The notes under the pieces were generated by a model. It ran no database searches, had not been told where the DNA came from, and saw only the letters and a program-made list of their open reading frames with translations. Positions 731 through 18,059 of a DNA stretch of 64,000 bases are shown piece by piece; within the stretch, counting starts at the first letter, position 1; each line of letters starts with the position of its first letter. The position numbers and the translations under genes are program-made. This stretch comes from Methanoculleus sp. Its GTDB lineage: Archaea > Halobacteriota > Methanomicrobia > Methanomicrobiales > Methanoculleaceae. The stretch lies in the NCBI RefSeq assembly GCF_030019085.1, contig NZ_JASEFJ010000005.1, positions 1 to 64,000 of the forward strand. Reading direction: 5' to 3'.

Positions 731-3700
731 CTACTTTCGGAAAAAGGCCAACAGTTTTAGCAAAACCCTGCCCAGCAAACCGGTTTGTTTTACAGGGAAT
801 ACAGGGGGCATACTTGTTGTGCTGTCTCCATGCTCCACCTCTATGAAAGCACGACATTCATCGACGCCACCTTCTTCATGGCGTGGGGTCGTTGTATAGC
901 CACTATCCTTAGGAACTTTGAGCTCGGGTGATTTATCATCTGTTCCGTGCTGGAATTCTACCCCTTGAGGAACATTATCCGAATCCTGCGCTCTCAATTC
1001 CTCCCTGCGAGTTTTGCTCCATTTCTCGGCAGACCCAGCCTCTGGTGCGTATTTCGTCCCGGATTGCGGAGGACTCAGATGATCTCCGGGCTTGCGCACA
1101 ACCGACTCCCTGACCGGGCGATCGCCGCCCCCCTCATTATTATATTCAGGCTCATTGATCCTCTCTGTGAGGATTTGACGCTGGTGGTGCCCATCGTCAT
1201 CAAATGCAGCCCCCAGTTGGTCATTCGGCTCCTGCTGCTCGCCGATAAAGGAATCCAATTGAGAGAACGTCTCCATCAGCCGCCATCGACGCTCGTCCTC
1301 AATAACCGCAAACTGTAGTTCATCATGCCGTATCCGTTGATGTTCGAGATCGATGAGACCATCTACCGCCACGAATTCATCGAATTCATCTACCTCCATT
1401 TCAAACCCCTCGGGTCCATTACCTACCTCATCGAAATCGTCTATAATACGACACTCCTGAGTATATTCGAGATCGGCAATTTCTTCTTCCAATGCATCAA
1501 TTTCATCTTGGATGGTCTCGTCCCAGACCTCAGGTTCTACCGATCCCTGTCGCTGGGTGTCAAGCAGCAGATCCTGCAGAAATAGAATCTTCTGGCGTAT
1601 TTCGTCTATCTGGATGGCAATATCCGGATCTATAATGTCTATGGCATCCTCATCCTGACGCAGCCCGAAATCCCCAAAACATGCATACAACTCCTCTATT
1701 TCCTCAAACTCCTGCAAGAGTTGCTGCTCTTCATCCCCGCGCAATATCCCGTCCCACGAACATGCATACAACCCCTCTATTTGCTCGAACTCCTGCAGGA
1801 GTTGTTGCTCCTCATAAATGTCAAACGGTTCCAGTTCACAGAGATCGGGATCGATTACCCAAACGCCGCCCATCCATACCGCCCGGCTTACATCAGGCTC
1901 TCTTGAGGGCATCAACCGCCGGGTGTTTTTGATGATAGCATCTCCCACCTCAACCAGAATCTTTGTCCCCACCTGTTGTCGGTTGAGGTTCCTGAAGCCC
2001 TCGGTGATGTCCTTGAACCCCTCTTCCGGGGTTGTACCGGCAGCACGGCAGAATCCTGCCAGTATCAGGAGTCCCGGGTGGGAGGGATGCTCTTCAAGTT
2101 GCCGGCGACAGGCACCTAGAACCTGGGTGAGATCGTCCATGCCCTGTACCTGGGCAAGTACCGCCAGCCAGAGGCGGTGATCATCACTCCTCGCTATCCG
2201 CCGGATATTCTCGGTGAACGCAGATTCTTCGAGGTACGCGAGGAGCGCCTCACGGAACGCCGCCGGCCCCTGCTCCACTCCGTCTCGTGCTGCCTGGAGC
2301 ATGTGAAGAATGGCCCGCCGACGGCGTTTCCCGACCGTCTCGTAGAAGTAGTTGATAAGGATACACCCAGCATCATATGCGGCTTCCGCGTACGTGTCTT
2401 TCAAGGATCTTCCGCGGAGCAGGGCGTTCATCTCGCTCTCGGTCATCCGTTCACTGAGATACCCCCTGAGATGCGCATAGATGTCGTCGGGATTGAGACG
2501 TTTTATGTCGATGATGAATCGCTTTCCGGTGTAATCGTAGGCATAATCCACAATTGCTCCGATGAGATAGCAACGGTGGAGCGCCATTTCCAGTGTCTGT
2601 TTGAGATCGCCACCAGATGCCTGGTTCGGATCACCTGTTGTAGCAAACCGTGGCGGGAAATCCCAGATAGAGAACTCAAAGCGTTTTGTTTCATCCGAGC
2701 CCGGTATCTGGGGCAAGAGGATATTGTAAATGGTGTAGTAGAGCGCCCTGATCTCATGATCGGTCCCGCGGAAAGTCTGCCTGAAGAACCAGAGGTTCCG
2801 CACAGCATCCCCCCGCTGACTTAGATCGTAGTCAGACCTGAGAGCGAGCGCATCATGTGGTGTCACTTCGGGGTCCAGCAACCGGTCTGCAACCGAGGCC
2901 TCTTCGTCCACGAACACTACCACGCACCGGGCCGGTTTCCCATCTCTACCGGCGCGGCCTCCCTGTTGATAGAAGTCTTCGAGCGACCTGGGGAGCATCG
3001 CATGGATGGTGAACCGGATATTTGGTTTGTCAATCCCCATCCCGAAGCTGTGGGTGCAGACCAGGAGGGGGATCCGGTCGTTCTTGAAGTCGACCTGTAG
3101 CGCTGCTTTTCTTTGTTCCCATTCGTCATCGTTGACGCCGGGTGGTGCTTTTCCCGAGTATGTCGGGATGTCGCGATCAAGTCTGCTCCCCAGTTCCCCT
3201 GCAATCTGGGTAACCCCTGCATTGCCCCCTACAAAATTTGAGAAGATGAGACCACAGGGAGCTCCGCTGGCAGCAAGTGAAGGGTCATTGGTAAGGCGTT
3301 GCAGGATCTGTGCAATTTCCTTAATCCGGTCTGCCTCTGAAACACGGTGAACCTCGAAGGTGAGTTCCGCACGGTCAAACGTCGAGGGTTCGATGACCGC
3401 ATCCAGATCGTAGATCCTGAGAATATGCCTGATATCAACAAGGACGTTCTGCGAGGCGGTGCCGGTCAGGGCAATGAGGACGGGTTTCCGGGTGGCATGC
3501 TCACCCATTCGCCGCCAGACATTCATATAGGCAAGCCGGAAGTCGTGCCCCCATTCACTGACACAGTGCGCCTCATCGACGACACAGTAGCTGATGTTGT
3601 CCATCTGCCGGTTGACCAGATCGATGAACTCCGGGATCTGGAGCCTTTCGGGTGCGTTGAAGACAAAGAGAAACTCACCCCGCTCCATCTTTGTGTATCC

Positions 3701-5266
3701 GCGTTGCCGGAGATCGGCATCTTTCGTATCGGCATCGCCCGCACCGCTCATGAAGGCGTGGCAGCGGTGGATTCCCATCGCCTCCAGACTGCTTATCTGG
3801 TCGATCATCAGCGACCGGAGCGGATCGACGATGAAGGTGAAACCCGGCTGGAGGAGTGAGGAGATCTGGTAACAGAGCGATTTTCCGGCGGCGGTGGGCA
3901 GGAGGCCGATGACCGGACGGAGCGAGAGCGCCCGAACGATTATCTCCTGCTGTTTCGGCCTGAACGCGACTTTCCGGAAGACGTTCTGGAGTAGATATTC
4001 GAGGTTTGCGCTCACCGCCCCGGCATCAATCCCGTCGAACTCAACCGCGCGGGGTGTGGCCGCGATGAATGGCTCGACATACTCCGACCAGACCTGGCTT
4101 GGTGCTATGGTGATGCTGTCCCGGCGAGCGGCGAGTGCGTCCCACGCCGCTGCCGACGGATACCCGTAGTAGACCAGATCGGCATCCGGGTCTGCACTGG
4201 GGACGAGGGTCAGCGTCAGCGGGTCGCCGGGAGCGTGGAGTGCGGTGATCGCATCAACCATCCCCTGGACCGCGGCAACGACCGGCTCGAGGGGGAGGCT
4301 CTGCGGATTCCCGATCCCGACGGATCGCTTGCCGCCGGCGTGGATTATCTGCGCTACCGCGACGGAGATCTGCGCTTCAGCGACCGGGAGCGTGACGAGG
4401 TTGCAGAGCGCAGCCTTTGCCCGGGGATGCATGCGGCGCACGGTCCCGGCCGCGGCGAGCATCTCGTGGGGTATGGCTTCGGAGATCTTTCTGACGATCT
4501 GCTCAAGTTTCTCCTGCCACTCCGCTCTCTCTCCAAGGGCGAACCGATAGACCTCCCACCCCGCACCCTTGAGAGCCCGATCCCGCTTCAGGTCCTTCGA
4601 TATCTGTGCGTAGGTGTGGCTGCTGTCGTCTACCTCGACGACAATTTTGAGCCAGTCGTCGCGATACTTCGGCACCTCCAGCGCAAAGTCGACCCGCTCG
4701 TCATGGTGATCCGAAACCCCCATTGAGTCCATGGAACGTTGCGGTAGGAAGAGCAGACCAAGGCGAGGATCGGGGAGCCAATCGACCAGCATGTCGAAGA
4801 AGATTCCTTCAGGTGCGGTGCAGAGCGACCGGTAGCGCTCAAGGAGTGCATCGACCTCATTCTCATCGAGCAGCAGTTCAGGGATACAGCAGGCCTGCAG
4901 CAACACGGCGAGGTCTTCCCTGCGCGGCGTGCACCGGAATACAAACGCCCCGGAATCTGTCTCTTCCGCAACATCGAGGAGGCCAGCGGCTTCTGCTTCT
5001 TTGAGAACGTATCGTTCGACCTGGAGACTGCAGGGAGCAGGGATCCCGCGCTGGGCAATCTTTCCAAGGACCGGGCCGACAATCTCATGCCTCCCGGGTC
5101 CGCAGCGTTCAGGCTTTTTGAGGGTAAACCCGCTCCGGTAGTGTGCGTATCGCCGCACTCTGGGAGACGCGAATGCCGGCGGCTCATCGAGCAGCCGGGC
5201 GACACTATCGGCCATGTACGCCGCGGCTGAATACGATCCGAGCCACGGGCATCCTTTTCGCTGCAT
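731..5266 (-). CDS. RecQ-like superfamily 2 helicase with N-terminal Vsr/DUF559-like nuclease domain
   Basis: The product has 1511 residues, far longer than a typical RecQ (about 600). Residues 190-250 look like a PD-(D/E)XK nuclease of the Vsr/DUF559 type: D193, E211-V-D213, H217, then K224 D225 and R228 D229 before a GW at 236-237. The helicase core runs from about 430 to 790. Walker A is TAAGKS near 458-463, the DEAH box with VSEWGHDF is near 564-576, and motif VI QQGGRAGRDG is near 767-776. The C-terminal third has no recognised domain. It is strongly acidic and glutamine-rich, with a 27-residue tandem duplication. The ATG has a GGAGG site about 9 nt upstream. The order nuclease then RecQ-like helicase suggests foreign-DNA processing or repair. 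A single-gene defence role is inference from domain order and the mobile-element setting. Confidence 0.75.
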   Translation of the reverse strand: MQRKGCPWLGSYSAAAYMADSVARLLDEPPAFASPRVRRYAHYRSGFTLKKPERCGPGRHEIVGPVLGKIAQRGIPAPCSLQVERYVLKEAEAAGLLDVAEETDSGAFVFRCTPRREDLAVLLQACCIPELLLDENEVDALLERYRSLCTAPEGIFFDMLVDWLPDPRLGLLFLPQRSMDSMGVSDHHDERVDFALEVPKYRDDWLKIVVEVDDSSHTYAQISKDLKRDRALKGAGWEVYRFALGERAEWQEKLEQIVRKISEAIPHEMLAAAGTVRRMHPRAKAALCNLVTLPVAEAQISVAVAQIIHAGGKRSVGIGNPQSLPLEPVVAAVQGMVDAITALHAPGDPLTLTLVPSADPDADLVYYGYPSAAAWDALAARRDSITIAPSQVWSEYVEPFIAATPRAVEFDGIDAGAVSANLEYLLQNVFRKVAFRPKQQEIIVRALSLRPVIGLLPTAAGKSLCYQISSLLQPGFTFIVDPLRSLMIDQISSLEAMGIHRCHAFMSGAGDADTKDADLRQRGYTKMERGEFLFVFNAPERLQIPEFIDLVNRQMDNISYCVVDEAHCVSEWGHDFRLAYMNVWRRMGEHATRKPVLIALTGTASQNVLVDIRHILRIYDLDAVIEPSTFDRAELTFEVHRVSEADRIKEIAQILQRLTNDPSLAASGAPCGLIFSNFVGGNAGVTQIAGELGSRLDRDIPTYSGKAPPGVNDDEWEQRKAALQVDFKNDRIPLLVCTHSFGMGIDKPNIRFTIHAMLPRSLEDFYQQGGRAGRDGKPARCVVVFVDEEASVADRLLDPEVTPHDALALRSDYDLSQRGDAVRNLWFFRQTFRGTDHEIRALYYTIYNILLPQIPGSDETKRFEFSIWDFPPRFATTGDPNQASGGDLKQTLEMALHRCYLIGAIVDYAYDYTGKRFIIDIKRLNPDDIYAHLRGYLSERMTESEMNALLRGRSLKDTYAEAAYDAGCILINYFYETVGKRRRRAILHMLQAARDGVEQGPAAFREALLAYLEESAFTENIRRIARSDDHRLWLAVLAQVQGMDDLTQVLGACRRQLEEHPSHPGLLILAGFCRAAGTTPEEGFKDITEGFRNLNRQQVGTKILVEVGDAIIKNTRRLMPSREPDVSRAVWMGGVWVIDPDLCELEPFDIYEEQQLLQEFEQIEGLYACSWDGILRGDEEQQLLQEFEEIEELYACFGDFGLRQDEDAIDIIDPDIAIQIDEIRQKILFLQDLLLDTQRQGSVEPEVWDETIQDEIDALEEEIADLEYTQECRIIDDFDEVGNGPEGFEMEVDEFDEFVAVDGLIDLEHQRIRHDELQFAVIEDERRWRLMETFSQLDSFIGEQQEPNDQLGAAFDDDGHHQRQILTERINEPEYNNEGGGDRPVRESVVRKPGDHLSPPQSGTKYAPEAGSAEKWSKTRREELRAQDSDNVPQGVEFQHGTDDKSPELKVPKDSGYTTTPRHEEGGVDECRAFIEVEHGDSTTSMPPVFPVKQTGLLGRVLLKLLAFFRK
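1680..1811 (-). repeat. 81-bp tandem duplication inside the helicase gene
   Basis: Two near-identical blocks at 1680-1730 and 1761-1811 are offset by exactly 81 bp (27 codons). On the minus strand each encodes EEQQLLQEFE followed by a short acidic stretch and LYAC. The remaining part of each unit is diverged. The repeats sit in the acidic C-terminal region and keep the reading frame, so they are a protein-level repeat and not a disruption. Confidence 0.85.
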
Positions 5267-5520: not shown

Positions 5521-7549
5521 CTCACTTTGCGAGACCTTGTCCCACCTTCCTGAGTATTTTCCCCTTCCCTCGCCGAATCCATGATCACAGTGTTGTCTCT
5601 GCACCCACTCCGGGGTACCACCCAGAACCCCACAACTCATTATTCTCCCCCAAACCCCTCTGGCGTCCAACCTTCTCAAGAGTTTCCGCTCTTCACCCTC
5701 CGGTAAGAGATCCGCAATAACGCAGATGCTACACGCCTACCTCAAACTCGAGCAGTTTTAACCAGATTCCCAGATTCTTCTCATGATCCCGCGAGATGCA
5801 CCTGAACCAGCGCTCACCCGCGATCGTAACAATCGAGTAATACCCAATGAACCGGAGGATCTTCTTCAACCCTGGCCGGATAAGCGGTTTACAGCCGTGA
5901 TCGAGCCCCGGTGGTTCTGGCAGAGCATCCAGATTCCGGCGTACCACCACCCCGATCACCACCTGGATCAGGAGAGACACCGCCAGCAGCGTCACGAGAG
6001 CCGTGATCCGTTCCGGTTTCTTCAGATAAAGAGTATCGACCATCATCGGCCGTTTGATGACCGAAAAGTTATCCTCCACCTTCTTCTGCTCCTTGTAGAG
6101 TCGGAGAACCTCACGTGCCGGTGCATTCTCTTCAGAAACATTTGTCATCAAGACAAACGACTCAGCCTTGCGCAGTTCGGTCAGGTAGACCTTTTGCTGC
6201 AACTGTGGTTCACTGGCCCGGATCACCCATTCGGTAACCTGGATCGTTGGTCGCGGATTCTTTCCCGGTCTTCCCCGTGGATTCTTCTCGGTGACGAGAG
6301 TTTCAAGAGACAGATCGACCTTCCAGAGTCGATGCTTGCGAAGGCTTTTGCGTGCTTCTTCAAGCGCGCGTTGTGCGTCTGTCTCACAGGCAAACCGCCT
6401 TTTAGTCACTCCCTTGAGAACTGCAACGAACTCCTCCTGCTTTTTCAACAGGTCTGTCTCGAATTCATCGCGTCGATGATTGCCCCGGAAAACCAGAAAG
6501 CGACAAGATATCCGGTCATCGGTTGTTCGAGTGAACTCCTGTACGTCGTAGGTCTCCGGGTTATCCCCGTCATCCTCCCGATATGACCCGATCGGTATCC
6601 AGGCATCCGCCTCGTAGGCTGTCCCGGTCACCTGGGCAGCAATCTTCTTGCTGAAACTTGCCGGGCACCGGGTGACGAACTGGATATTGTTTTCCAGCAA
6701 CTTCCGGATGTTCGGGGCAGTTGCCAGTTTCGCATCGGCGATGTAGATGACATCAGTACGAGAGAGGGGATCCAGCTCAGCGAGTCTCTGGATGATCGCA
6801 GTGTTCCAGGTACAATCTGCCTCGTTCCCGTCACGGATGGTGGTGATGAGCGGGATCCCGTGGGGGTCGCAGACCTGGTCGAGCATAATCTGAACGAGGT
6901 CATCTCTCTTCTCTTTGCTGTGACCGTGACAGATGGTGGGGGCCATGGGGAGAGAGTCTTCCGATCCTTCGTAGGCGCCGTATAGGGAGATCGAGGTGGT
7001 GTCACCGTGGAGAACGAGGTGAAATGGGATAGAGAACGCGGTGTAGACCCGGAGGGCGAGAGAGGTGAAGAGGTGCTCACACCCGGCGGCAAAGAGCCGG
7101 TCTAAGAAACAGGAAAAGGCATCCCGGGTCAGCCATTCAGGACGCACCTCCGGGGTGAAGAGGAGCGCCATATCCATTCCCTGGTAGTGTTCAAAGATGC
7201 TGTAGATCGGGAGACGTGACCCGGAATGGATGAAAGGAAGCAGAACAATGGCTTTTGCCAGGTTGCCAGGGCTCACCCGCCACTGGCTCTGGTCCCAGGT
7301 AAGAGCTGCATTGATGGTTTCGACAAACTCGATCCGGTCGAGGAACGAGGCAACGACGGTGGCGGTGAGGGGTGTTTGCGAGGCAACAAGATGCTTCTTT
7401 TCGGCGGTCTGTTGGATGAGATGGGTGAGGGAAGAGAACTGAGTTGCTGGAGGATGAGGCATAAGAAGTATATCGTAGAGGGAGTGGTCGTACTTTTTGA
7501 TATGTAAATATAATTATGTGCTACTGTGCCAGAGGGTTCGCAAAGTGAG
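5521..7549 (-). mobile_element. IS1634-family-like insertion sequence
   Basis: A single transposase gene is bounded by short inverted repeats. CTCACTTTGCGA at 5521-5532 pairs with TCGCAAAGTGAG at 7538-7549. A few further matching bases (ACC) lie inside with one indel. This gives an element of about 2.0 kb with 208 bp of non-coding DNA on the left and 87 bp on the right. I found no matching target duplication beside these ends (TAAAG on the left, TTTTG on the right). Either the true ends are a few bases further out or the flanks have changed since insertion. Confidence 0.6.
5729..7462 (-). CDS. IS1634-family DDE transposase
   Basis: The product has 577 residues, a normal full length for the family. 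The RNase-H-like catalytic core shows Asp154 in HGDTTS, Asp243 in IADAKL, and a Glu near residue 465 in KKVEDNFSVIKRP. The family-typical GHSKEKRDDL segment occurs near 179-189. The N-terminal 110 residues look like the helical DNA-binding part. The reading frame is intact from ATG to stop, so the protein is probably functional. It catalyses cut-and-paste movement of its own element and is flanked by the short inverted repeats described for the element. Confidence 0.88.
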   Translation of the reverse strand: MPHPPATQFSSLTHLIQQTAEKKHLVASQTPLTATVVASFLDRIEFVETINAALTWDQSQWRVSPGNLAKAIVLLPFIHSGSRLPIYSIFEHYQGMDMALLFTPEVRPEWLTRDAFSCFLDRLFAAGCEHLFTSLALRVYTAFSIPFHLVLHGDTTSISLYGAYEGSEDSLPMAPTICHGHSKEKRDDLVQIMLDQVCDPHGIPLITTIRDGNEADCTWNTAIIQRLAELDPLSRTDVIYIADAKLATAPNIRKLLENNIQFVTRCPASFSKKIAAQVTGTAYEADAWIPIGSYREDDGDNPETYDVQEFTRTTDDRISCRFLVFRGNHRRDEFETDLLKKQEEFVAVLKGVTKRRFACETDAQRALEEARKSLRKHRLWKVDLSLETLVTEKNPRGRPGKNPRPTIQVTEWVIRASEPQLQQKVYLTELRKAESFVLMTNVSEENAPAREVLRLYKEQKKVEDNFSVIKRPMMVDTLYLKKPERITALVTLLAVSLLIQVVIGVVVRRNLDALPEPPGLDHGCKPLIRPGLKKILRFIGYYSIVTIAGERWFRCISRDHEKNLGIWLKLLEFEVGV

Positions 7550-7906: not shown

Positions 7907-8935
7907 TTATCCGTTCTTTTTTAACTCAATATACTGCCGGAGAAGATCCTCGACATCGTCACGGAACTTGCTTCCACCGTCCTTAAGTTTTTGCTGGACT
8001 TCCTGTGCAATCTGGCCGTGTTGGTTCTGGTAAAATTCGTAGAGGGTCTTAACAATCGGCGCGAATTCCCCGTCATCAGCTCGCACGAGTGCATCCAGGT
8101 AAGCACTTCGGTGTTCCCGCCCAAGGTAGAGTGTCGGATATCCGGAGCGTTCCAGGATGAAATTCATTAACGCTCGTCCCACTCGCCCGTTTCCGTCAAC
8201 GAAGGGGTGGATAATCTCGAATTTTGTATGGAACAGGATCGCAAGTTCGAAGGGGTTGAGAGTCTTCCTGTTCTGCCGATACCATCTGATGAGGTTCTGT
8301 ATTTCATCAGACACGAGGATTGCGGGCGGCGGCTGGTAATCGACGCTTGCTATACCAACCTGAATGTTCCGGTAGTTTCCCGGATCCCGAAGGATATGGT
8401 TCATCAAGATTTCGTGGATCTTCTTGATAAACGCCCCGGTGATGTCCCCGGTATATCCGCTGAGGTAATTCCTGAGGGTAATATAGTTGAGGACTTCGTA
8501 CACCTCGTCCATTCTCTTCCCGGCTGGCGAGATGTTGTGTTCTAGGAGTTCCTGCGCTTCTCGAAGGGTGATAGTGTTCCCCTCAATTGCGGTTGTACCC
8601 TGGACGTAGCGGACGTACATCGCGTCCTGATACCGTTTACTCTCGTCTGGATAGAGATCCTTGAACAGATCGTAGAAGTAGCGCAAACTCTCGAGGTTGG
8701 CGGCCTGGTCCCGATCAAGGACCGTGAAGGCGTAGTGTTCCAGCCGATACTCAAGGTATTTGGTTAACCTCGAAGAGAAGAGATTGAGCAGTTTCACCGA
8801 AAAGTCCTGTGGCTCGACCGTTTCGAGTCTACCTACGTATGTCTGGACAGAAAGTGATTTGGAGTTAACCTTTACCCTGTCTCTGAGGTAGAGGTATTTG
8901 TTGCCTTTTATTATCTTTAAAGTCAACTCTACCAT
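7907..8935 (-). CDS. Fic-domain protein (predicted AMP transferase), class II
   Basis: The product has 342 residues. The active-site loop is HPFVDGNGRVGR at residues 243-254 and matches the Fic consensus with its catalytic His. Upstream, TTAIEGN at 114-120 matches the inhibitory helix motif that lies N-terminal to the core in class II Fic proteins, whose Glu competes with the gamma phosphate of ATP. Residues 1-80 form a family-specific N-terminal part. Known Fic proteins transfer AMP or other phosphoryl groups onto hydroxyl side chains of target proteins. The target here is unknown. No antitoxin gene sits beside it, as expected when inhibition is built in. It lies between the IS element and a transposase remnant, so horizontal origin is likely. 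Confidence 0.88.
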   Translation of the reverse strand: MVELTLKIIKGNKYLYLRDRVKVNSKSLSVQTYVGRLETVEPQDFSVKLLNLFSSRLTKYLEYRLEHYAFTVLDRDQAANLESLRYFYDLFKDLYPDESKRYQDAMYVRYVQGTTAIEGNTITLREAQELLEHNISPAGKRMDEVYEVLNYITLRNYLSGYTGDITGAFIKKIHEILMNHILRDPGNYRNIQVGIASVDYQPPPAILVSDEIQNLIRWYRQNRKTLNPFELAILFHTKFEIIHPFVDGNGRVGRALMNFILERSGYPTLYLGREHRSAYLDALVRADDGEFAPIVKTLYEFYQNQHGQIAQEVQQKLKDGGSKFRDDVEDLLRQYIELKKNG

Positions 8936-10099: not shown

Positions 10100-10948
10100 A
10101 TGAGTGGGAGTGAAATCACCATCAAGTACACCAAGATTAACAATTTTGATAAGGTTGGTGTACTAAATGAGGATCATGGGGAACAGCAGGTGACAATTGA
10201 TATCCTGAAGGCCATCGCCCGCGAAGGGCAGGTATTCACACTCGAGCAGCTGCACCGGCAGACAGGGATCCCGAAAAACATACTCTCGGTGATGCTTTCC
10301 CGGTGGGAAGATCGGGGTCTCGTCGAGCGGATCGAGAGAGGGAAATACCTGATCATCCCGCTTGAGAGCGAGAAGGGCAAGTACACGCTTCACGAGTTCG
10401 TGATTGCATCGCACCTCGTCCAGCCTTCAGCGATTGCGTACTGGAGCGCTCTCCACTACCACGGCCTGACAGAGCAGATCCCGATAACGGTCTTCGTCCA
10501 GACGACGGCGCGGAAGAAGAAGAGACAGCTCGAGGTGTTTGGCGTGGACTACCGGATCGTGCGGGTAAAACCGGAGAAGTTTTTCGGCTTTGCGAAGGAG
10601 TGGATCGAGGAGACACCGGTTACCGTCACCGACAGGGAGAAGACGGTCATCGACTGCCTCGACAGACCTGAATACGCCGGAGGGATTGTCGAGGCCGCAA
10701 AAGCGCTGGAGAACGCATCGCTGGATCGCGAGAACCTGAGCCGGTACGCCCGGATGATCGGGAACAACGCCGTCGTCAGGAGGCTCGGTTATCTGAGCGA
10801 ACAGGCGGGAGTTCCACTGGATCTGCCTCTTCCGAGATCCAGGAACTACCTCCTCCTCGATCCTACGATGCCACGCCAGGGAGAGAACGACACGAGGTGG
10901 CGACTGGTCATCAACACCGAGATCGCGCTTCCGGAGGGCTCGGGATGA
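10100..10948 (+). CDS. abiEi: AbiEi-type antitoxin / transcriptional autorepressor
   Basis: The product has 282 residues. A winged-helix domain lies near residues 30-85 (LHRQTGIPKNILSVMLSRWE then GKYLI). An AbiEi core follows with YWSALHYHGLTEQIP, and ends in a Lys/Arg-rich segment and a C-terminal helical part. In type IV AbiE systems the AbiEi protein represses its own promoter and neutralises the AbiEii nucleotidyltransferase without binding it. Its stop overlaps the start of the next gene as ATGA, so the two are translationally coupled. The ATG at 10100 gives a 5-10 residue longer N-terminus than the family norm; a later start is possible. Confidence 0.85.
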   Translation: MSGSEITIKYTKINNFDKVGVLNEDHGEQQVTIDILKAIAREGQVFTLEQLHRQTGIPKNILSVMLSRWEDRGLVERIERGKYLIIPLESEKGKYTLHEFVIASHLVQPSAIAYWSALHYHGLTEQIPITVFVQTTARKKKRQLEVFGVDYRIVRVKPEKFFGFAKEWIEETPVTVTDREKTVIDCLDRPEYAGGIVEAAKALENASLDRENLSRYARMIGNNAVVRRLGYLSEQAGVPLDLPLPRSRNYLLLDPTMPRQGENDTRWRLVINTEIALPEGSG

Positions 10949-11769
10949 TACCGGTCCGCGAGATCAAAGAGGCCGCCCGTGCCTATGGGGTTCCACCCTC
11001 GACCATCGAGCGGGACTACGCACAGAACTGGCTCCTCGCTCATCTGAGCGTCCTCCCCATGGCGCTGAAAGGGGGGACGGGAATCCGGAAAGTTTTCATC
11101 GAGAACTACCGCTTCTCGGACGATCTCGATTTCACCCTGCTGGAGCCGTATGAAAAGGAGGCGTTGCAGGAGGCGGTGAAGGATGTGGTATCCCGCGCGC
11201 GAGAGGAGAGCGGCATAGGGTTTGAGGAGGATATTAGCATTACCGAGACGGCGACCGGATTCCGGGCGACAACCCTGTTCAGGATCATTCCCATGAACGC
11301 ATCCACCCCGACCAGGATCGTCATCGACCTCACGACCATGAGTAACGAGAGCATTCTGCTCCCCGTTGAGACGAGACAGATCTATCACCCGTACTCAGAC
11401 AGACTTACCGCCGGGGTGACCTGTTACTGCCTGGAGGAGATCATGGCCGAGAAGATCCGCTCTCTCTTCCAGCGGGTACGTCCCCGAGATATCTACGATA
11501 TCCGGCACCTGGCCGACCGCGTGGACCCGGACGCCGTGAGGGCCATTCTCCACCGGAAATGCGAATGCAAAGAGGTCGTCCCGGACAACTCCGTGCTCGC
11601 GGGGAGGCGTGAACTATTCTCAGCAGCATGGAACGCATCACTCCGGCACCAGATGAAGGTCGTCCCGGATTTCGAGGAGGCATTTGGAAGGGTGCTGGGT
11701 TGTGTCGAACTCTACACCCTGCGACCTGGCGAGGTTTCGCGTAGTCGGGGCGATGATCGGAGCGATTGA
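10945..11769 (+). CDS. abiEii: AbiEii/AbiGii-type nucleotidyltransferase toxin
   Basis: The product has 274 residues from the ATG that overlaps the AbiEi stop; a longer frame from 10897 is rejected. The nucleotidyltransferase signature is present: GGTGIRK at 43-49 and FSDDLDF at 57-63, with the metal-binding Asp pair. EKIRSLFQRVRPRDIYDI follows, the conserved C-terminal motif of this family. The protein blocks growth when released, and the pair acts against phage in characterised relatives. The tail from about residue 265 (RSRGDDRSD) runs directly into a truncated HicB-like frame, so the original 3' end may have been altered by recombination. Confidence 0.87.
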   Translation: MIPVREIKEAARAYGVPPSTIERDYAQNWLLAHLSVLPMALKGGTGIRKVFIENYRFSDDLDFTLLEPYEKEALQEAVKDVVSRAREESGIGFEEDISITETATGFRATTLFRIIPMNASTPTRIVIDLTTMSNESILLPVETRQIYHPYSDRLTAGVTCYCLEEIMAEKIRSLFQRVRPRDIYDIRHLADRVDPDAVRAILHRKCECKEVVPDNSVLAGRRELFSAAWNASLRHQMKVVPDFEEAFGRVLGCVELYTLRPGEVSRSRGDDRSD

Positions 11770-12015
11770 GATGTCGCATATGCAATCGAGTTCTTTCGCA
11801 GCGACGAGGACGTGAGGTTCATCGTCGTCGTCCTGGAGGTTCTGGGGTGTTCCGCGTTCGGCGAGACCGAAGAGGAGGCGCTCTCCGAAGTGAAGGTGGC
11901 TATCGGCCTCTGGATCGAGGTTGCCCGTGGAGTGGGGCGGGAGATCCCGGAGCCGAGCGGCCGGGAGCACCTCGCGGATATTCTTGCGGGGATCGCCCGC
12001 GGCGAGATGGCGTGA
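11770..12015 (+). pseudogene. HicB-like antitoxin fragment lacking its start
   Basis: The frame directly after the AbiEii stop encodes YAIEFFRSDEDVRFIVVVLE, then GCSAFGETEEEAL and a helix, ending GIARGEMA. This matches the partial RNase-H-like fold of HicB antitoxins, in which the GxTxEEAL segment is diagnostic. No start codon precedes the first strand, because the upstream in-frame stop is the AbiEii TGA. A GTG at 11812 could start a shortened 67-residue protein lacking the first strand. No HicA toxin (about 60-80 residues with a GSHH motif) was found beside it. It is probably an orphan remnant, though the short form could be made. Confidence 0.5.
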
Positions 12016-14195: not shown

Positions 14196-17100
14196 TCACA
14201 TAAAGTCCGCAAGCCCGAGCTGCCGCTGTGGGGGTTCGCCGAAGGTGGACTCGATCTGCATCGCGAGCACCTCCACCCGCTGTTTTGTGTACTCAGAGAC
14301 CCGGTAGTTTGCACAGATGTTTCGCGACATCTCCAGGTACTTCTTCACCGAACCCTCGTGAACCGTGGGGATAACGTTTCCCCCGCAACGGGTGCATTTC
14401 CCGGCAAGCGGCATCCGCCTGTACTTCGCGTTGCACTTCATGCACCGCACCTTCTGCTTTGAAAAGGCGTTGAGGTTCCCCTGAAGATCGCGTATAAAGT
14501 GCGTGTTCAGGACACGTTCAGCGACGTCATCCTCATCCACCGCCCGGATCCTCTTCGCGAGTTCAAGTTCCGCCTCCAGTTTCTCAAGCATCGACCCGAG
14601 TTTTGTGTAGGTCGACTCGAGCGGCCCCGCCGAGATATCAGAGGTAGGGTGGGTGAAAGAGAACCCCTCAAACTGGGCCGGGGTGCCGAGTCGCCGCTCC
14701 ACCCTGTCAACGTAGTCGTCGAGGTCCTTTGGGTGGACGTAAGCGAGGCAACCGTTGTAGACCTCCAGGGGGTAGTGGTCACAGACATCGACGTTGTGAC
14801 ACTCCTTGTCGACCTCTGTCGGGTCGATCCGGGTCGTAAGTACGAGCGGGGCGTCCATCGTCCCGCCCCGGGTCTCCGGGAGGTAGGAGCGGGAGAAGTT
14901 GATCAACCCGTCGAGGAGGAGCATCACGCAGTCCTCGTCACCGTCACACTGCCCACAGAAGATCCCGTTTGCAACCAGGGTGTGGTTATCGGCAACCGTG
15001 AGACAGTATACCCGGTCATCGAGCGTCTGCACCGCCTCGCAGGCCACAACCTCATCGCTCACGACGATCCCGCCCTCCTCCACCGGGACGCGGTCACCGG
15101 GTGCGACCTCGAGAGCCCGGACCTTCCGGAGATAATCCGTCTCCCAGACAAGCATCGCGTGATCCGGCGTGACCGTGAGAATCTTCCCCCGTCGGGTCTC
15201 AAACCGGATCATGTGCGCCGGGGCGCGGTGGACGGAGACCGAGGTCACCCGTTTCAGGCTGACCTTCCCCTGGGTGTCTATGCTTCTCACATAGAACGGT
15301 TGTTTGGGGTCGGAGTAGTATGTCCCGAGATGGTCGAGCCCCGGCTTTGAGATATCGAAGTTCTCCACGACGAACTGCCGTATGGGCATCGTCAGCCACC
15401 GTCGCCCATCTGAGACGGTTATCTCGGTATCGCCGGCAAAACAGTTCCTCCTCTTCGCCGCGTGGAAGAACGGGTGGCCGTAGCCCACCGGGGCCTTCGA
15501 GAACCCGATCAACCTGGCGAGAACCCCGGCGCTCGTGTGCGGGGCAAGCCCTATCAGCAGGTGGCCGACAAGGTCAAGGGGTTTCTCCGCGTTGTAAAAC
15601 GGTTCAAGCCCGTAGACCTTCACCAGAAGGTCGTCGATGAACTTCGATACCCGGACAAGCCACTCGCCGCAGTCCTCCGAGACCAGGATATCCTGGTGAC
15701 GGAGTTCCAGCACCTGGTCGGCCGAGACAAGTTCCCGACCGTTGATGTCCCGGGTGTATCCGAGTTCGTGGAGTCGCTCGATGGGGACACCTACCTCGTC
15801 CGGCCGGAAATGGGTGAGGGGGAGGTCGATCATATCGTAACGGACGGTGCCATCCTTGAATACATAAAGGTTCTGCAACGATCGGAGGATCCCCTTCTCG
15901 ATCGGTTCCACCGGTCGTTCGCGGGAGATCAGTCCCCTGACACCCTTTAAGAGCGCTATCGATGATTCGCGCACATCCAGCCGTTCGAGTGCCGCTGCAT
16001 ACTCCTCCCTGACATTGATCGTGACCTTCTGGAGACAGACCGTCTCCACCCTGCACCGGGGACAGGCACCCTCGCCCACCTCTTTTCCACACTTCGGGCA
16101 GCGGAAGACCGGGTTTGTGTGCGTCCCGCAGTCACAGAGGTTCCTGTAGGTGAACGCACCGCAGGAAGGACAGCGCCGTTCCCCGACCTCAACCTCGATC
16201 ATCCCACCATCTGTGTTGGAACGGGGTTTTGAGGTGCAGGCCGCCTGGAACGACCGGCGTGAACCCCCCTCGTCCCCGATGGGGAAGAGTGAGTGGGGCG
16301 GGGGACGCATCTCCCGCGGTTTCGATTTCCCTGGTCGGCCCATCCGGCCTCCGATCCGGGTCCCGGCCCGCGAACGGATCCTGAAACCCGAGAGGTGCAT
16401 AACCAGGTCAAGCGGGTTCTCCATCGGGGCGTCCTGCCACTCCGGCCGCTTCTCCAGTTGCAGCGTCAACCCGAGACAGGCAAGGAGCACCAGGTGCTCC
16501 CGGATCGCGATCCTCTCCCCGGAGATGCGGTGGGGCACCAGGAGTTCCTCAAGGATCGCCTTTACCTCCGGGGTGTTCGGGAGCAGCAACACCCCATCCT
16601 CGATCCTGCCCCCGGTTGAGACCATATCCGCAAGCCGTGCGATATCAGTCGGCGTGATATCGTCCCACATGTATGTGTAGTCGGGGTGGAGGGGCGCCCC
16701 CTCGATCGCGAACTCGATCGCCTCGAGTTCGTTCTCCGGGTGGCGCTGCCCGCCTTCGAGCATCCACCACTCCTCGCAGTAGGCAGGAGGCATCAGCGGG
16801 TGGTTGTTCTCCATAAACTCCCCGAAACTGATCAGGATCTCACCGACGTCCAGGATCTCCTCGACCTGCCCTGCGAGCCTCCCGGCCTCTGTTGCATCGT
16901 CGACCCTTCTTATCTCACCGTTCCGGAGTTTGACAGTCGGCCCCTGGATCGAGTCTACCGGCACAATCCCTGCTGCTTTCCCCGGCCTTTCAATCTTCAT
17001 CTGGGTCCCGACCGCCAGGAAGTCTCCAAGGATATGCATCGTTGCGGGGTTCAGGCCGGCCGCAGCAAACCCGGTGTTACGCGCTCGACCCAGGCGCAGC

Positions 17101-18059
17101 CGGAACCCCCCCTTGCGCATCGGGTACGCAAAGACCGGTCGCCCGCCGATGAGGTCGCGGATGTACTTGTCTTTGGGTTTGATCGCGGCACCGGCATCGT
17201 CCTCATCGCTCTGTGCCTGGGCGCCGCCGCTGACCATCTCTTCAAGCCAGTCCCAGCCCTCCATCTTCATCTTTCGGACGTTTTTGAGGACCTTCGGGGC
17301 TTTCAACGCCAGACCTTCCGCAACGACCAGCGCCATACCCCCACGGACGGTGTTAGTCTCCACCCGTTCCAGGTTCCGGTAACCGCTAACCTCCTGCTGC
17401 TCGGTCGGTTCGCCATCGATGCAGACAGGGCAGTTCTCGATGATCATCCGGAGTTCTTTCTCGCTCGGGAGGTACTGGAGACTCATGATGTTGTTGTACT
17501 GCCGGATCTCCTCGATGTAGCGCTCCACCTCCTCCGTCCGCGGGATGTATCGGCCGATCCCGAGCGCCCGGCGGACGTAGTCCCCCACGAGCACAGAGAG
17601 TGCCTGGGCGGTCCCGCCGGCGCTCCGGATTGGGCCAGCGTAGTAGACCTTCAGGTAATCCGTACCGTCATCGTTCTTTCCAAGGCCGATCTTTGCAATA
17701 CCCTCTGTGGGGGCGGCCACCACACCCTCGGTAAGGAGGGCCATCGCCGCACGGATGGCGTGGTCCAGGATCTCCTCTCGTGTGGTCTCTCCAAACTTTC
17801 TTGCCACAAAATCGTCGCCGATCCGGAGCGCGGCCTCTTCGCGGGACATCTCCCGCTCAAGCTCCCGGATCCGGGCGGCGATACCCCGGTACCCGAGGAG
17901 CGCCTCCACACGGTCGGCAAGGTCGCTTGCCACCGGGATCTCGACCTCCGTTCGGGGGTCAAGACCGCGGGCGCGAGCGGCACCGGCAAGGCGCATCGCA
18001 GCCTTGAGTCCGGCATCGATCTCCTCAAAGTAGCGGGCGATAGCGGGCGAAACTTCCAT
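14196..18059 (-). CDS. polC: DNA polymerase II (PolD) large subunit DP2, with intein
   Basis: The precursor has 1287 residues. Removal of the intein at residues 873-1037 leaves an 1122-residue DP2, the normal size. DP2 is the polymerase subunit of the replicative family D polymerase, which works with the DP1 exonuclease subunit (not in the window). The catalytic loop AKRRN-CDGDED, with the two essential Asp residues, is split by the intein. A zinc-ribbon block lies near residue 630-700 (CPSCG, CDCG, CPKCG, CPRC). Another is near the C-terminus (CMKC and CTRC). The final residues RQLGLADFM look like a PCNA-interaction motif. The ATG at 18059 opens [15 protein letters not shown], the usual family start. 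Confidence 0.96.
14949..15443 (-). other. Mini-intein in PolD DP2 (165 residues, C-terminal Gln)
   Basis: The intein starts at the Cys of CFAGDTEIT (block A). It carries TPDHAMLVW (block B, with the Thr and His of TxxH) and ends with [22 protein letters not shown] (blocks F and G). The next residue is Cys of the extein CDGDED, so all splicing nucleophiles are present. The last intein residue is Gln instead of Asn and the residue before it is Gly instead of His. A C-terminal Gln is known from the Pyrococcus abyssi PolII intein, which splices. At 165 residues there is no room for a homing endonuclease. The insertion site next to the catalytic Asp pair is the usual one for DP2 inteins. Confidence 0.92.

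Follow-up and report, generated by a model that had tools for sequence, protein, structure and literature searches.

The first 64,000 nucleotides of a Methanoculleus contig (hereafter the window) carry, close to the contig end, a very large reading frame, which a first-pass annotation had described as a giant nuclease-helicase protein with an acidic tail and as a candidate single-gene defence system. Here, we addressed what kind of enzyme is encoded by this frame, whether it belongs to a single-gene system or has partners, and whether the surroundings of the gene and of its relatives are consistent with a role in defence.

Gene and overall domain organization

The frame at positions 731 to 5266 encodes a protein of 1511 amino acids, as had been described, the gene being located on the minus strand, which had been left unstated; the assignment is supported by the ORF itself, by Pfam and NCBIfam matches, by orthologs and by purifying selection. 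Relative to four same-genus orthologs, dN/dS values of 0.12-0.36 were obtained in all domains outside the tail, and the frame is therefore regarded as a gene under selection and not as a chance ORF. Since the window begins at the contig end, 730 bp are readable downstream of this gene.

The domain architecture can be read along the protein as follows, the coordinates of all its domains referring to the minus strand. The N-terminus is formed by a conserved region (residues 1-185; 4712..5266), recognized in the family alignment by the motifs CPWL... and ...RG.PAPCS..., the conservation of which reaches as far as the homolog of genome G203 (36% overall identity). The nuclease domain and the helicase core described below are separated by a linker domain of no named family (residues 266-420; 4007..4471), which is common to family members.

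An N-terminal nuclease domain of the Vsr/DUF559 type

A Vsr/DUF559-like nuclease had been placed at residues 190-250, and this assignment is borne out by a profile match over the cut-off and by a D...ExD...H signature in 11 homologs. The PD-(D/E)XK domain (residues 186-265; 4472..4711) is matched by DUF559 (PF04480) on residues 206-260 with an E value of 2.7e-5, which is over the Pfam cut-off. In the alignment of 11 divergent homologs (from archaea, Rhodothermota, Bacteroidota, Thermus and E. coli), no exception was seen at D193, E211, R228 and G236, and D213, H217 and D225 are almost invariant; residues 193-228 follow the pattern of a predicted Vsr/DUF559-type PD-(D/E)XK site, with D193, E211, D213, H217, D225 and R228 as the catalytic columns, and the nuclease signature at the N-terminus of the window protein is intact. 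In a structure model built from three sequences the nuclease core reached a pLDDT of about 70-89, the remainder of residues 1-430 being poor, and this partial nuclease model retrieved the nucleases 3hrl, 4qbl and 3r3p among its best Foldseek matches, none of which was significant (best E 0.41).

The homolog of genome G695 (L050:1929-5447) has lost the nuclease ExD and carries KDVH in place of DEAH, an overlapping coiled-coil gene (1130-1936) being retained; this protein is possibly an inactive homolog kept with its partner. A DUF559-like FVVEFDESQHF motif was also observed in a 778-aa protein encoded upstream of the G064 homolog (L016:6755-9091). Two candidates were dropped as family members, namely that of G451, where the match to the nuclease alignment reads as an HsdR subunit, and that of G367, which reads as another large DUF559-bearing protein.

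A RecQ-type helicase core outside canonical RecQ

The RecQ-like core previously assigned to residues 430-790 was recovered, with slightly wider limits (residues 421-800; 2867..4006), by matches to TIGR00614 and to E. coli RecQ (1oyw). Pfam places DEAD on residues 436-608 and Helicase_C on 720-776, the NCBIfam RecQ model TIGR00614 scores 234 bits (cut-off 219.8), and the top solved relative is 1oyw (E 4.6e-50), with which the complete helicase core is held in common. Together with its Walker A (458-463, TAAGKS) and DEAH (564-567) motifs, the DEAD/DEAH plus Helicase_C core contains all RecQ motifs, which identifies the protein as a RecQ-family helicase. The Walker A sequence is also TAAGKS in the homolog of G119, and TGAGKS, TGGGKS or similar in other members.

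Compared with the RecQ family, the window protein adds the N-terminal nuclease as well as large N- and C-terminal regions, and the RecQ zinc cysteines are absent from the archaeal (window-type) forms and from most plasmid forms, but kept in the Thermus branch. In a tree of RecQ cores, a branch with support 100/99 separates all nuclease-RecQs from six canonical RecQs; the window protein groups outside canonical RecQ, in a separate clade, and the window genus and G119 constitute one clade (support 99/97). Plasmid-encoded giant proteins of Scytonema and Sulfitobacter (L054:4263-9269, L060:2736-7838), which read as RecQ joined to a UvrD-like helicase, group with canonical RecQ and were set aside.

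Considering that PADLOC calls the RecQ-core matches DpdF, the gene could alternatively be part of a larger helicase array (Dpd or YprA-based) with no system of its own. Of the PADLOC models, a single one, bearing the name DpdF, extends over most of the E. coli form, spanning its nuclease-RecQ-C-terminal part almost fully, the best-scoring others matching the helicase part, and YprA-type helicases are present in the G119 and Deinococcus loci. However, in the window protein (P0001) and in five other members only the helicase part is matched by DpdF models, and the window protein, despite the RecQ-like core that it has in common with DpdF, obtains 137 bits with the NCBIfam DpdF model (NF041063), for which the cut-off is 550; moreover, neither dpd genes nor a Dpd operon were noticed in the loci read. 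A helicase and a Vsr-type nuclease are also combined in one protein in YprA-family ARMADA and Druantia systems (PMC12458937); the nuclease of YprA helicases is C-terminal, whereas the window protein has a RecQ core and an N-terminal nuclease. Membership of such an array is, in our assessment, improbable.

Distribution of nuclease-RecQ proteins

Homologs were surveyed in one archaeal phylum, in collections of plasmids, phages, viral contigs and E. coli, and by one genome-contig scan with the window protein. Within the order they occur in 7 of 232 genomes, close orthologs being found in four same-genus genomes and more remote homologs in G119 (42%) and G203 (36%), and nuclease-RecQs are also sparse in the sample of the phylum. 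The E. coli cassette was retrieved from 7 of 5426 E. coli genomes. Viral contigs yielded no relative of the full protein, the alignment query giving three short nuclease-domain matches, and a tblastn search of plasmids with the N-terminal 439 aa alone returned Haliscomenobacter only.

Acidic tail and downstream coiled-coil partner

The C-terminus had been described as an acidic, glutamine-rich segment of about 700 residues, of which the acidic character was confirmed for residues 1131-1511 (25% D/E, 7% Q, net charge -62), but not the extent, as residues 801-1110 belong to a family-wide conserved region. Of 12 family members that were aligned, most of which are tail-less, nearly all contain these residues, with an occupancy of 0.96-0.99 across residues 901-1100, and the region as a whole (residues 801-1130; 1877..2866), which lies outside the acidic tail, is mostly helical with a TPR-like end.

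The tail proper (residues 1131-1495; 782..1876) is supported by its composition, by a tail alignment, in which its helical stretches are kept among same-genus orthologs, and by a repeat, the EEQQLLQEFE motif being duplicated at 1152 and 1179; residues 1131-1511 have a lower GC3, 0.51 versus 0.64-0.72. It is followed by a C-terminal basic amphipathic helix (GLLGRVLLKLLAFFRK; residues 1496-1511; 734..781), which is kept in G066 (GLPGRILLKLMAFFRR), similar in G119 (FAKIKRILFRK) and missing from the same-genus members G061, G064 and G054, such a helix thus occurring in three of the six tailed members examined. The structure model of the C-terminus was unusable (pTM 0.25).

Downstream of 9 of the 11 tail-less homologs, versus none of the six tailed loci, lies a gene for a coiled-coil product that has at its C-terminus a hydrophobic helix, probably spanning the membrane, both features being called from sequence and hydropathy. 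This partner is the next gene in Rhodothermus, Haliscomenobacter, Salinibacter, E. coli, Thermomicrobium, G203 and G532, while in Thermus it comes after an inserted transposase gene and in G695 it overlaps the nuclease-RecQ gene and has a weaker hydrophobic end. The downstream coiled coil of Deinococcus is devoid of the hydrophobic helix, and the G670 locus has no partner gene of this type. A blind filter taking in ORFs of 120-420 aa was applied to 175 ORFs of these loci, and eight of the nine that passed were the downstream partner (seven distinct, E. coli being represented twice).

In the window, the 730 bp between the gene and the contig end contain no coiled-coil/TM ORF. As the tailed loci form one clade, the mutual exclusion of tail and partner counts as a single evolutionary event; the tail shows no sequence similarity, above shuffled controls, with either the coiled-coil partners or the G119 tail. 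The designation as a single-gene system does not extend to the family, which usually has the coiled-coil/TM partner and to which the E. coli forms add DprA and a HAD-PRTase; the methanogen form may represent a derivative with a single gene.

Gene neighbourhoods and alternative roles

The window gene had been placed at the edge of an island with AbiE, Fic, MNT, HicB and methylase remnants. It is adjoined by a transposase gene (DUF4277/DDE by Pfam; 5729..7462, minus strand), and the same region contains a Fic-domain gene (7907..8935, minus strand; Pfam, and PADLOC SoFic E 1.1e-35) as well as genes for an AbiEi antitoxin (10100..10948, plus strand; PADLOC E 2.9e-84) and an AbiEii toxin (10897..11769, plus strand; PADLOC E 3.9e-68). 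AbiE and Fic were thereby verified; the HicB-like antitoxin remnant (11800..11967, plus strand; PF15919 E 1.3e-5) is under the family cut-off, and neither a separate MNT match (PF01909) nor an N6/N4 methylase match (PF01555) was obtained in the window. Further along, the gene for the DNA polymerase II large subunit (14196-18059) has, by eye, an intein-like reading (CFAGDTEI...ANGIFCGQC).

Among the homologs, that of G203 neighbours HmaC and the BREX genes BrxC, PglX and PglZ; that of G119 has an adjacent, convergent DruE/YprA-type (Druantia-type) helicase and also a BrxH-like helicase in its locus; and in G061 and G064 PDC-S27, a PADLOC candidate ATPase, is directly downstream. The chromosomal cassette of E. 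coli ET846 (L056:9056-15143), consisting of dprA, a HAD-PRTase-nuclease-RecQ fusion and the coiled-coil/TM gene, lies between the type I RM gene hsdR and the MZA genes mzaABC. In Deinococcus pDrdI (L021), the nuclease-RecQ gene is adjoined by genes for a HAD-DprA fusion and for a helicase ending in a PRTase. No clear defence gene was seen near the homologs of G532 and G670 in the loci read. The homologs are patchy and often located among defence genes, as opposed to housekeeping ones, and the proposed defence role is supported, though not proven, by these neighbourhoods and by the patchy spread.

Several plasmid members invite another interpretation, since the Thermus member adjoins ParB and that of Rhodothermus is near a replication initiator: together with the clear RecQ core, this would fit a repair or recombination helicase that serves the replication and maintenance of the mobile elements or plasmids which took it up, and not defence. 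Plasmid maintenance was retained among the possible roles because the bacterial members came from a plasmid collection, and for the same reason their location on plasmids partly reflects where the search was made. Considering also that the chromosomal E. coli copy and those of G203 and G119 are located among defence genes, and that the window genome already has a canonical RecQ-like gene, we regard this role as quite improbable.

For the E. coli form, the chief alternative is an abortive, DprA-linked reading, according to which the nuclease-helicase would be a toxin or abortive effector that harms the DNA of its own cell once a partner, be it DprA, PRTase or the coiled-coil protein, no longer controls it, in the manner of PsyrTA, RqlHI or ShosTA. 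E. coli forms are preceded by a ShosA-type DprA (E 6.8e-68) and carry a fused, ShosT-like HAD-PRTase (E 1.5e-7), and with RqlHI and PsyrTA they have in common a RecQ-like helicase in a conflict-type operon, the E. coli plasmid relatives also having DprA and PRTase. In addition, RqlH is genotoxic without RqlI (PMC4670107) and antitoxin activity has been reported for DprA homologs (PMC9122126), both of which were counted in favour of this reading. However, RqlH is a helicase of 690 aa with a C-terminal PRTase and without a nuclease (PMC4670107), a layout different from that of the window protein, and the PRTase domain to which RqlH toxicity has been traced is absent from the methanogen form: no Pfam match to a PRTase was obtained for the window protein, and the PADLOC PsyrT model covers its helicase core only. 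Likewise, in comparison with ShosTA, the archaeal protein is without a PRTase/HAD domain and no adjoining DprA gene was seen. We regard an abortive effector as rather unlikely.

Proposed mode of action

The reading that we favour, and which we hold to be somewhat probable, is that the 731-5266 protein is a helicase-nuclease anti-virus system acting on incoming viral or plasmid DNA, with the partner or the tail holding or gating the enzyme; the case for defence is made by gene neighbourhoods, from which we infer anti-viral activity. The RecQ-type 3'-5' motor would load on single-stranded or broken DNA and unwind it, and the N-terminal nuclease would nick or degrade the unwound viral or plasmid DNA. 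In most relatives, the coiled-coil/TM partner may keep the enzyme at the membrane, at the site of DNA entry, or gate its activity, while in the methanogen clade the acidic tail and the terminal basic amphipathic helix may replace this anchor in cis. A stronger version, advanced here tentatively and as a possibility on the doubtful side, is that of a widespread membrane-tethered defence module of bacteria and archaea composed of a Vsr-nuclease-RecQ and a tail-anchored coiled-coil protein, of which the methanogen clade lost the partner, the acidic tail with its terminal amphipathic helix having become the anchor.

A few searches of the openly licensed literature, which say little on publication status, returned no description of such a nuclease-RecQ system. 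The RecQ-type helicase and the Vsr-type nuclease are parts familiar from DNA repair, which are combined here in a family found repeatedly beside anti-virus genes in both bacteria and archaea, with a conserved coiled-coil/transmembrane partner. The E. coli form makes the defence reading testable with standard phages in laboratory strains. If true, this reading would add a defence module in which a helicase-nuclease works together with a membrane component, and for which the loss of the partner would constitute a natural experiment.
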